NCBI GenBank assembly: GCA_016350165.1
Contig: CP066225.1
Coordinates: 4,526,001 to 4,590,000, forward strand
Direction: 5' to 3'
DNA from: Planctomycetota bacterium
GTDB taxonomy: Bacteria > Planctomycetota > Phycisphaerae > Phycisphaerales > Phycisphaeraceae
Length of the DNA: 64,000 bases
Both the position numbers and the translations under genes were made by a program. Under the pieces are notes generated by a model that saw nothing but the letters and a program-made list of their open reading frames with translations, ran no database searches and was not told the DNA's origin. The stretch's first letter is position 1. Each line of letters opens with the position of its first letter. Shown piece by piece: positions 37,634 to 40,340 of the stretch.

Positions 37634-38638
37634 TTATTTCGCCTTTTTCTGGCGTTTCGGCTTAATCTTCAGATCAAGGTTATCCATCGATACCGTTGAA
37701 TTGGCTGGGATTGATTGCGTAATAAACACAGCACCGCCAATCGTTGAATTTTCACCAATCGTCGTTGCGCCACCCAAAATAATCGCACCCCCATAGATCG
37801 TGACATTGTCTTCAATCTTCGGATGGCGCTGCATACCTTTCCAATCCTGCCCACCTTTGGTCGACAGTGCACCAAGTGTTACACCTTGATAAATCTTCAC
37901 ATTGTTACCAATGATGCAGGTTTCGCCAATTACGATACCTGTTCCATGGTCAACGCAGAAACGTCTGCCAATTTTTGCGCCAGGGTGAATATCAATCCCT
38001 GTTTCATTGTGTGCATACTCAGTCATGATGCGTGGCAGCAGCGGCACGTCCAATTCTTGTAAAACATGCGCGACACGATAAATAAATATCGCATCAATAC
38101 CTGGGTAGCAGAAAATATTCTCATCCATCGAAGCAGACGCAGGATCGCCTTCAAATGTTGCAAGAACATCATCCGCAAGAAGCTTTCGGATCTCAGGCAA
38201 CTGCTGTAAGAAATTTTCAGTCGCATCAAGTGCGATCCTATCGCACTTATCACATTCATCGCCCAGGCCATCTTCTCTAACATTCAGCGAGTAGCGCATT
38301 GCCTGACGACATTGGTCATACAGCTTGTCATGCAAAGCAGAAAGCAAATCGCCCACATGAAAACGTACGTTCTCACTGGTCACGCGTTGCTCATCAAAAA
38401 ATCCTGGAAACAGCAAGCGACGCAGCATTTCTATGATCTCGATCGTTTTTACCCTGCTAGGCAAAAAGATCGCATCCAAGTGCTGCATGCTCTTTTCTTT
38501 CTGATAACTCTCAACCAGTTCATCAACCAGTCCAGTCAGAAAACTGTCTCTTTTGCATTTCGCCTGTTCCATATCGTCTAACATGCTCCGTATACTAGCG
38601 CTGACTTTTGAGCATTTCTTGAGTCCAATCCACCCCAT
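37634..38638 (-). CDS. cysE: Serine O-acetyltransferase
   Basis: A 334-residue enzyme that makes O-acetylserine from serine and acetyl-CoA for cysteine synthesis. The C-terminal left-handed beta-helix (about 200-315) has hexapeptide repeats and the SAT signature: IDIHPGAKIGRRFCVDHGTG, IVIGETCIIGNNVKIYQGVT and LGALSTKGGQDWKGMQRHPK, with the catalytic His in HPGA and DHGTG. The N-terminal 190 residues are a longer helical domain than in E. coli CysE (273 residues in total), as in the EpsC-like/plant-type group. Met19 (38584) and Met23 (38572) are plausible alternative starts close to a GGAG. It heads a minus-strand gene series, with an independent RNA terminator 120 bases upstream. Confidence 0.92.
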   Translation of the reverse strand: MGWIGLKKCSKVSASIRSMLDDMEQAKCKRDSFLTGLVDELVESYQKEKSMQHLDAIFLPSRVKTIEIIEMLRRLLFPGFFDEQRVTSENVRFHVGDLLSALHDKLYDQCRQAMRYSLNVREDGLGDECDKCDRIALDATENFLQQLPEIRKLLADDVLATFEGDPASASMDENIFCYPGIDAIFIYRVAHVLQELDVPLLPRIMTEYAHNETGIDIHPGAKIGRRFCVDHGTGIVIGETCIIGNNVKIYQGVTLGALSTKGGQDWKGMQRHPKIEDNVTIYGGAIILGGATTIGENSTIGGAVFITQSIPANSTVSMDNLDLKIKPKRQKKAK

Positions 38639-38760
38639 ATCGTTTATTCTTTCACACTGACTCTTTACTCAATCTCGTCGGCTAGACCCATAGTGTAACA
38701 CCAAATCGTAGCCAACTTATTTCATCTTTTTTCATTTCACACCAAACCCCCATTCCCCTC

Positions 38761-38789
38761 AAAAAAACACGGCCCACATTAGCGGGCCG
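38761..38789 (-). terminator. Rho-independent terminator of the structured RNA
   Basis: CGGCCC (38770-38775) pairs with GGGCCG (38784-38789). On the minus strand this is followed by GTG and seven T residues. It lies 120 bases upstream of cysE, so it ends the RNA and not cysE. Confidence 0.8.
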
Positions 38790-39000
38790 ATCGAAAGTAT
38801 ATCGTTTGTCACGAAGGGGAGCTCTAAAGGATTTGCTCGAACCCCAATATTAGGTGGGTGCGTCGCCAAATCATCCCGACCTTCCACTCGTGGGTGGCTT
38901 GGCCATCGTGCTCAGTTCCAGCTCCCTTGGGGTTCTCAAAGGTTCGAGCAAATACACAGTAGATGCTGATGACCCCTTCGGCAAACTTTTCACTTTATAT
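38761..39000 (-). ncRNA. Candidate rod-shaped structured RNA, about 240 nt, identity uncertain (6S-like?)
   Basis: On the minus strand a promoter (39006-39034) and a terminator (38761-38789) bracket a segment with no open frame that folds into one long rod. GTTTG/CAAAC and CGAAGGGG/CCCCTTCG (38804-38819 with 38973-38986) close the base. After an asymmetric internal loop comes a perfect 13-bp stem (38831-38843 with 38941-38953, ATTTGCTCGAACC in one arm). Further pairs lie toward the apex, such as GCCAA (38865-38869) with TTGGC (38899-38903). A competing helix GAACCCCAA/TTGGGGTTC is also possible. A rod with internal bulges and its own promoter is what 6S RNA looks like, but I cannot match the conserved 6S sequence, and the SRP RNA core is absent. 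Confidence 0.55.
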
Positions 39001-39005
39001 CGTCC

Positions 39006-39034
39006 ATTATACATACCCAAATCTACTACTCCAA
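39006..39034 (-). promoter_or_regulatory. Sigma70-type promoter for the structured RNA
   Basis: On the minus strand TTGGAG (39029-39034) and TATAAT (39006-39011) are separated by exactly 17 bases. A start near 38999 is expected. Confidence 0.65.
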
Positions 39035-39156
39035 CCACATTATCGCTTTTTCACATCTCATAAACATTATTCAGCTATTTGCCCGTAGTTGACTCAAAAT
39101 AAACTTGACTTTGCCTTTTTTATATGTTCACCCTATACACACGATTCGTCATTAAA

Positions 39157-39186
39157 AAAGAGCCGCATAAGCAGCTCTTCTTTTTA
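39157..39186. terminator. Bidirectional rho-independent terminator
   Basis: AGAGCCGC and GCAGCTCT pair around a short loop with A/T-runs on both sides (AAAAAAGAGCC ... GCTCTTCTTTTT). On the minus strand it ends the LysM protein gene. Confidence 0.8.
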
Positions 39187-39212
39187 ATCTAATACTTAGT
39201 TAGAGTTTTCAC

Positions 39213-40340
39213 TCAATTCTTCTTCGTTGGTATAACCAACTTCATTCCTATCTGCAAAGCATCAGGATCATCATTCATCTTCTTCTTATTCGCATTGAAG
39301 ATCTCACGCCATCTATTATACGTGCCGTAATATTTCTTCGAAATGCTTGACAATGTTTCACCTGATTTAACAGTATGAACCGCCATTGATCCTGCTGGTG
39401 CTTTAGGCTTGTTTGCAATCGTTGTTGTCTTGATGACTGGATTCTTTTTAGCCTGTTCTTTTGCACGAAGCGTAGCAATATTAGGGATATTCAACTTCAT
39501 GCCCGGCTTAATACGCTTCGGATCAATCGTTGGATTTGCCTTCGCAATCTCCATGAAATACTTAGGCGTGTTATAAACCTTCTTGCTGATCTTATACATA
39601 CTATCGCGTGGCTGAACCGTGTACTGTGTCATCTTTGGTACAGTAGCGGTCGTCGTTCTGCGAGTTGTATTACCAAGTAAATTACGTGTTGTCGTTGGCT
39701 TTACTGTTGGCTTAGAGCCCAACACATTGTTGGTCGATGTGTTTGATGGGGCAGGGAGATTGTTGCGTACAGGAATCTTAGATCCAGCGGTATTTGTACC
39801 TGTCGAAGTTGAAGGCTTTTTGTTCCAAGCACTGGCTGAATTATTCGTCACAGAGGGCTTGCTTGCAGGTTTTCCATTCAACGTGAAAGTCGATGAACTA
39901 TTCAATGGCTTTGTCGTACCTGATACACCAGAAGTTGATGAATTTGGCTTGCTCGAATAGCGGCTCGATGTTGTGCCACGGTTACCTGTCGTGCCAATGC
40001 CTGTATTAGACTTTGGTGTAGAGCTAGCACCGCTGGTAGCACCCGAATTTCTTATAAAATCGCGAGCTTTAGAGCCATTGCTTGGCTTCGAATTGTCTCT
40101 CGCGGTTACTTTCGTTGAAGCTTTACGAGTTGAACTACCAGATGTCTTACCACTGTTTTTGTTGGGCAGGGTGTTTCTGGCGGTTAAATTTGATGAATCG
40201 CTGCCCGCAACTGCTGCAGGAGTATCCCCTGTCGGCTGGTTCGCAACCGTTCCGCTATCATCATTGCTAAAGTAAAAAAATACCGCAAAGCCGAAAAATA
40301 ACATCACGGCCAAAAGCGCGATCTTGTAAGAGCTGTTCAT
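39213..40340 (-). CDS. Membrane-anchored protein with two LysM domains
   Basis: A 375-residue protein from the ATG at 40340, chosen because GGAGG lies eight bases before it; the ATG at 40358 overlaps that site. One N-terminal transmembrane helix (YKIALLAVMLFFGFAVFFYF, about 5-24) is followed by a long Ser/Thr/Asn/Lys/Pro-rich disordered stretch (about 30-225). Two LysM peptidoglycan-binding domains end the protein: about 232-285 (YTVQPRDSMYKISKKVYNTP) and about 317-372 (HTVKSGETLSSISKKYYGTY). It presumably spans from the cytoplasmic membrane to the wall. There is no hydrolase domain, so a scaffold or wall-tether role is inferred. It stands alone and is divergent from the glycosyltransferase gene. 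Confidence 0.85.
   Translation of the reverse strand: MNSSYKIALLAVMLFFGFAVFFYFSNDDSGTVANQPTGDTPAAVAGSDSSNLTARNTLPNKNSGKTSGSSTRKASTKVTARDNSKPSNGSKARDFIRNSGATSGASSTPKSNTGIGTTGNRGTTSSRYSSKPNSSTSGVSGTTKPLNSSSTFTLNGKPASKPSVTNNSASAWNKKPSTSTGTNTAGSKIPVRNNLPAPSNTSTNNVLGSKPTVKPTTTRNLLGNTTRRTTTATVPKMTQYTVQPRDSMYKISKKVYNTPKYFMEIAKANPTIDPKRIKPGMKLNIPNIATLRAKEQAKKNPVIKTTTIANKPKAPAGSMAVHTVKSGETLSSISKKYYGTYNRWREIFNANKKKMNDDPDALQIGMKLVIPTKKN

Follow-up and report, generated by a model that had tools for sequence, protein, structure and literature searches.

The question raised by this locus is what kind of molecule, if any, is made from some 240 nucleotides (nt) of the minus strand that precede a cysE-like gene in the deep-sea planctomycete Poriferisphaera heterotrophicis (Planctomycetota). 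The stretch lies in a window of 64,000 nt (the whole piece of DNA analysed; contig CP066225.1, positions 4,526,001 to 4,590,000), and the positions given below are window coordinates obtained by exact sequence search. 6S RNA of other bacteria is a global regulator that blocks RNA polymerase by mimicking an open promoter, and a sequence-only reading had described the stretch as a 6S-like rod capable of two alternative folds. Judged by its sequence and that of its relatives, the stretch is with high probability the 6S RNA gene of this organism, a reading to which we give a probability of about 0.93.

Homology to 6S RNA

At the Rfam gathering thresholds no family matched anywhere in the window, and 6S RNA (RF00013) emerged only in a permissive search, with 24.9 bits and an E-value of 0.0044 for a 551-base stretch (aligned at 38951-38833). 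This below-threshold match was the best of the families listed, and its alignment contains the 6S blocks GGGAGC, CAAGCC, GGAAG and GCACCCACCU; the typical 6S marks, which the sequence-only reading had not recognised, are present there in diverged form. Three other permissive Rfam matches (E 2.1-5.7) all fell on a hairpin at 39178-39159 that belongs to the neighbouring LysM gene, and were taken as chance. Across the genome (5,234,020 bases, a single contig) RF00013 at E ≤ 10 found the window RNA (E 0.0098) and nothing else; no better 6S candidate was found, and the genome searches with RF00013 and with our own model R1 (see below) agree on a single copy.

Homology to accepted 6S RNAs was found in both search directions. 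With the RNA as blastn query against its own genome and 40 relatives, 38 of the 41 gave a match at E ≤ 1 and 32 at E ≤ 1e-4. When RF00013 was applied to 29 related loci (L002-L030), it listed 19 in the corresponding position at E ≤ 10, and two of these exceeded the gathering score; L014 (66.7 bits) and L007 (63.8 bits), blastn orthologues from the same family that also lie before cysE, exceed the Rfam 6S threshold.

Distribution in the order and the phylum

Two covariance-type models of the RNA were used. R1 was built from 30 sequences of the family and order and had helix P2 one column off register, an error corrected in R2 (53 sequences, including that of the window itself); the count of 77 genomes given next and the genome-copy counts come from R1. 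Searches of 101 sampled genomes of the order were run with R1 and RF00013, both with stricter filters. R1 matched 77 of the 101 at E ≤ 0.001, at one place each except in G017, which has two. RF00013 matched 26 of the same genomes at this E-value, seven of them above its cut-off, and in 26/26 cases its place coincided with that of R1, each time with an overlap of more than 100 nt. The second place in G017 (C312:16608-16734, locus L148) is a weaker R1 match of 58.4 bits beside the main copy; it represents an additional 6S gene or else, with 2% contamination listed for G017, a contaminant contig.

In the opposite direction, R2 was applied to the 20 Planctomycetota loci with the highest RF00013 scores (L068-L087, all outside the order). 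It matched 19 of them, each time at the 6S site, with 12 matches at E < 0.001 and seven at E 0.004-0.42; L075 gave no match, and in the 61,249 bases nothing besides the 6S sites was matched at E ≤ 10. The 6S places of L165 and L166 are matched by R2 as well. Over 294 sampled Planctomycetota genomes RF00013 itself matched 129, with 81 above the cut-off, and left 165 without a match at E ≤ 0.001; some of the latter may hold divergent 6S RNAs, as the window's order does. The 6S loci outside the order were too divergent, and therefore no third model was made from them.

A scan of genome contigs with a motif pattern containing one arm of the collapse helix described below gave 37 loci, of which 14 were dropped (13 cores already present, one cut off) and 23 entered the building set of R2. 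Seven of these 23 had also been in that of R1; all pattern loci were left out of the final covariation counts. The 37 carry mostly Phycisphaer- or Planctomycet- names, with a few labelled Limnohabitans, Kuenenia or uncultured bacterium, labels of metagenome bins being unreliable.

Fold and covariation of the rod

The region 39004-38761, terminator included, folds at -92.6 kcal/mol, compared with a mean of -69.3 (standard deviation (sd) 4.6) for 200 shuffles, none of which was as stable (z -5.0). From its ends inwards, the rod consists of a closing helix P1 in the minimum free energy fold (38986-38973 with 38819-38804), helix P2, formed by ATTTGCTCGAACC (38953-38941) and its exact 13-bp partner GGTTCGAGCAAAT (38843-38831), a central bubble with its 5' strand at 38940-38927, and an apical arm P3 whose base pairs GGGAGC (38926-38921) with GCACCC (38861-38856). 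A conserved core of 131 nt (38957-38827) is matched end to end by R2 with 136.1 bits and E 1.9e-28, the window being part of that model's building set.

Covariation was assessed on 83 loci (82 distinct sequences; 30 from blastn, 53 from R1 searches, none found by the motif pattern). In an alignment that is fitted to the model and hence biased towards it, 90.2% of the cells in modelled helices are paired, and displacing the partner strand by 1-3 columns lowers this to 33-51% (maximum 50.5%), a control that retains the kinship of the sequences. Changes on both sides occur in 22 of the 32 pairs and in 379 cells, against 129.3 in shuffles (0/500), a comparison inflated by kinship. No modelled helix lacks a pair altered on both sides; in P2 this holds for 11 of 13 pairs, and one pair in the base of P3 occurs as GC in 44, UA in 26 and AU in eight of the distinct sequences. 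A RNAalifold consensus of a MAFFT alignment misplaced the P3 base, with a few rows shifted, and was set aside.

P1 lies outside the model and was examined without alignment: over the 83 loci the own flanks pair at -46.6 kcal/mol and swapped flanks at -31.1, with 0 of 40 swaps as good, and 52 of the 83 loci individually at least equal all but one of about 40 swaps. The rod architecture of 6S RNA is thereby found, a closing helix followed by the central bubble and by an apical helix, with loops inside. P1, P2 and the apical helices rest on compensatory changes or own-partner preference, and the P3 base on covariation. The absence of compensatory changes among relatives had been set beforehand as grounds for abandoning the proposal, and such changes are present; the 6S-like rod, with its two-way homology, single copy and covariation, stands more firmly than the sequence-only reading had worded it, and the perfect 13-bp helix named there is exact.

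A competing helix

The same sequence-only reading had noted a helix that would give an alternative fold. Its arms are exact: GAACCCCAA at 38935-38927, in the distal 5' strand of the bubble, and TTGGGGTTC at 38847-38839, which overlaps the 3' strand of P2. In the 83 loci 84.9% of the cells of this helix are paired, while slid controls reach 59.1% at most. Changes on both sides were found in seven of the nine pairs (reached by 6 of 500 shuffles) and in 45 cells against a shuffled mean of 11.4 (0/500). Pairing is lost at 27/210 in 23 sequences, at 36/203 in 24 and at 38/202 in 27, and the two ends of the helix are therefore not universal. The preference for the own partner is also evident without alignment, the arms scoring 19.2 with each other and 16.5 when swapped (sd 0.18, 0/200), and persists in the 59 loci that lack CCCCAA (18.5 and 15.6). 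Other Planctomycetota 6S RNAs (25 loci) show a weaker pairing of this type (own 15.9, swapped 13.6, 0/300), in which the register of the best helix varies.

When the window RNA was folded with the first 8-16 template bases held unpaired, mimicking the synthesis of a short product RNA (pRNA) with no polymerase present, the nine pairs reached probabilities of 0.87-1.00, compared with 0.01-0.02 in the free RNA. A central bubble collapse helix is described in PMC8876501 for the 6S RNA of A. aeolicus and for 6S-1 of B. subtilis, and GAACCCCAA/TTGGGGTTC corresponds to it in position. Its covariation is evidence that the alternative fold is under selection, and this evidence is separate from that of the Bacillus mutants.

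The locus and its signals

The putative RNA spans about 38999-38761 on the minus strand, with TATAAT upstream, the rod-shaped fold and a terminator at its end. The promoter that had been called consensus-like (TTGGAG-17-TATAAT) is present, and its -10 hexamer TATAAT (39011-39006) is perfect; the -35-like TTGGAG (39034-39029), at a spacing of 17 nt, is weak, sharing only 3/6 letters with TTGACA. This explains why a promoter scan of 38000-40000 found none, against 3.8 expected from shuffles. Transcription would start near 38999; RNA-seq data sets of strain ZRK32 of this species are named in PMC10945688 (PRJNA768630, PRJNA694614). The strong terminator (38789-38761) has a stem of eight pairs, seven of them G-C, at 38789-38770, followed by TGTTTTTTTG, and the lack of coding potential was confirmed, the longest open reading frames (ORFs) touching the stretch having 69 aa on the plus and 55 aa on the minus strand. 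The locus thus has promoter and terminator signals of its own and no sizeable ORF.

Of the 83 related loci, 42 have a -10-like hexamer (5 or 6 of 6) at 35-115 nt before the core, compared with 3.3% of 1281 control stretches, and 38 have a terminator-like element within 125 nt downstream, compared with 3.0% of controls. Both are more frequent in loci with top R2 scores; about half of the 83 have neither signal by these simple tests.

Upstream on the minus strand, a LysM-protein gene ends at 39213. The hairpin and T run at 39178-39159, just below its stop, were not listed by the terminator scan; this is probably the terminator of the LysM gene, and would shield the 6S gene from upstream transcription. 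Downstream, 122 nt beyond the RNA terminator, begins a serine O-acetyltransferase-like gene (37634-38638, minus strand; TIGR01172 E 3.7e-48, Pfam hexapeptide). With 163.6 bits it remains under the TIGR01172 cut-off of 210.65, and we therefore call it cysE-like; the RNA does stand upstream of such a gene, as had been proposed, with this restriction on its name.

Points against a 6S RNA, and other explanations

Several observations weigh against the 6S assignment. The 24.9 bits fall short of the RF00013 gathering score of 46.4, so that by the Rfam threshold the RNA is no member of the family, which we attribute to a limit of the RF00013 model and not to a property of the molecule. Ten of the 29 related loci (L002-L030) have no RF00013 match at E ≤ 10. 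R1 found nothing in 24 of the 101 genomes of the order, and among the 20 misses listed 15 belong to a single family (f2). R2 does not match E. coli ssrS at E ≤ 10, and over the 294 genomes of the phylum it reaches E ≤ 0.001 in only 13 (10 in the order, three outside), for which reason it should be regarded as a model of the order and not of the phylum. Within the fold, helix 5, the hairpin beside the apical loop, is the weakest, its lone covarying pair being unpaired in 48 of 82 sequences, and the P3 base GGGAGC/GCACCC has a probability of at most 0.02 in the free-state fold of the window sequence alone, though covariation supports it. Finally, 41 of the 83 loci carry a cysE homologue in the same orientation 53-599 nt downstream of the core, an arrangement that would also suit a leader.

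This last point underlies the first of the alternatives, a cis-acting leader of cysE (a riboswitch or attenuator) in which two folds and the terminator control the synthesis of serine acetyltransferase; the terminator between RNA and gene in the window and the existence of two alternative helices are in keeping with it. The neighbourhood is nevertheless dispensable. In 12 genomes picked because no cysE lies beside the RNA, the RNA is kept although nine have their cysE homologue at a remote site, over 40 kb off or on a different contig, and no cysE homologue was found at E ≤ 0.001 in the other three; for this reason we regard the link as lasting yet not necessary, and the leader as disfavoured. 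In L111, cysE lies upstream and in opposite orientation. The next ORF in some loci without cysE is what we take, from its letters, to be ClpB-like (L142, L143, L146), and in others (L112, L120, L130, L133, L139) presumably a HIT-family-like protein, with a motif near PWRMAYLR. Furthermore, the alternative helix alters the central bubble and has no overlap with the terminator stem (38789-38770), homology to 6S RNA was seen in either search direction, and E. coli ssrS likewise precedes a metabolic gene, fau. A leader is accordingly a highly improbable explanation.

Still less credible is another rod-shaped regulatory RNA that merely resembles 6S, such as an Ms1-like binder of core polymerase. 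The window sequence does lie under the Rfam 6S threshold, and PMC9130861 describes a structural relationship between Ms1 and 6S RNA; against this, some orthologues exceed the 6S threshold, the genome offers no other 6S match at E ≤ 10, and among the four families listed for the region with its flanks 6S ranked first (in a library whose content of Ms1 models was not checked). A chance fold of functionless intergenic DNA has next to no probability, being already contradicted by the covariation, and by the folding z of -5.0 and the R1 matches in 77 of the 101 genomes sampled from the order.

Proposed mechanism and significance

For a 6S RNA at this locus, transcription, polymerase binding, pRNA start and release are inferred by analogy with known 6S RNAs. 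The gene would give a stand-alone transcript of about 240 nt, bounded by a promoter and a terminator of its own and possibly trimmed. This RNA would mimic an open promoter, with P1/P2 as the long helix, an open central bubble and the apical arm P3, and would sit in the active site of polymerase carrying the main sigma factor. With nucleotides plentiful, the polymerase would copy the 5' strand of the bubble and P2, the predicted template region, into a short pRNA. Its start would be near 38938, the product beginning AAAGGUUCGAGC; we place it three bases after GAACC on the assumption that the E. coli start applies here, and the base at this position varies among relatives. Synthesis of the pRNA would open P2, whose freed 3' strand UUGGGGUUC could pair with GAACCCCAA of the distal 5' bubble; this pairing would collapse the bubble and release the polymerase.

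A broader proposal joins these elements: that the release switch is the dominant element of Phycisphaerales 6S RNA, the repeated GAACC in the 5' bubble letting a strong collapse helix of 9 bp rival P2 so that a very short pRNA suffices, and that cysteine synthesis is coupled, by the lasting proximity of cysE, to transcription reading through from the 6S promoter. We offer it tentatively, as a combination that is possible yet rather unlikely to hold in full.

Citing Wehner 2014, PMC5673643 gives Pirellula staleyi and Rhodopirellula baltica as planctomycetes reported to lack 6S RNA, and likewise states that none was found in Thermogutta. No description of a 6S RNA from the Phycisphaerae was found in the literature searched, a coverage that mostly leaves out subscription papers. 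In an order where Rfam exceeds its cut-off in seven of 101 genomes, 77 of the same genomes contain a 6S-type locus, and these relatives constitute natural variants for studying the release step. On the sequence evidence, the molecule is of an ordinary kind: a 6S RNA in a group that is mostly missed by Rfam, with a clear evolutionary record of its collapse helix.

Comparison with known 6S RNAs

The window RNA shares with E. coli ssrS and with RF00013 the rod shape, in which a central bubble separates the closing helix from the apical arm. It also resembles the RF00013 family in the blocks GGGAGC, CAAGCC, GGAAG and GCACCCACCU, in its single genomic copy and in having a lasting gene neighbour. 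The neighbours differ, being cysE for the window RNA and fau for ssrS, and ssrS is undetected by R2. Release differs as well: the pairing that we propose involves the 5' bubble, whereas gamma-proteobacterial 6S RNAs form a 9-bp hairpin in the 3' bubble (PMC8876501).

Parallels to the release pairing are B. subtilis 6S-1 and the 6S RNA of A. aeolicus, in which a collapse helix occupies the corresponding position. The evidence for the helix of B. subtilis came from probing, mutants served to study it, and its weakest part is described as three A-U pairs; that of the window has nine continuous pairs, a GC-rich centre and order-wide support from covariation. Other Planctomycetota 6S RNAs are more within the reach of Rfam, with 81 of 294 genomes above the cut-off compared with 7 of 101 in the window's order. 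At one such Rfam-accepted planctomycete 6S locus (L076:1087-1853) the gene directly downstream encodes 5-formyltetrahydrofolate cyclo-ligase, the same neighbour as that of E. coli ssrS.
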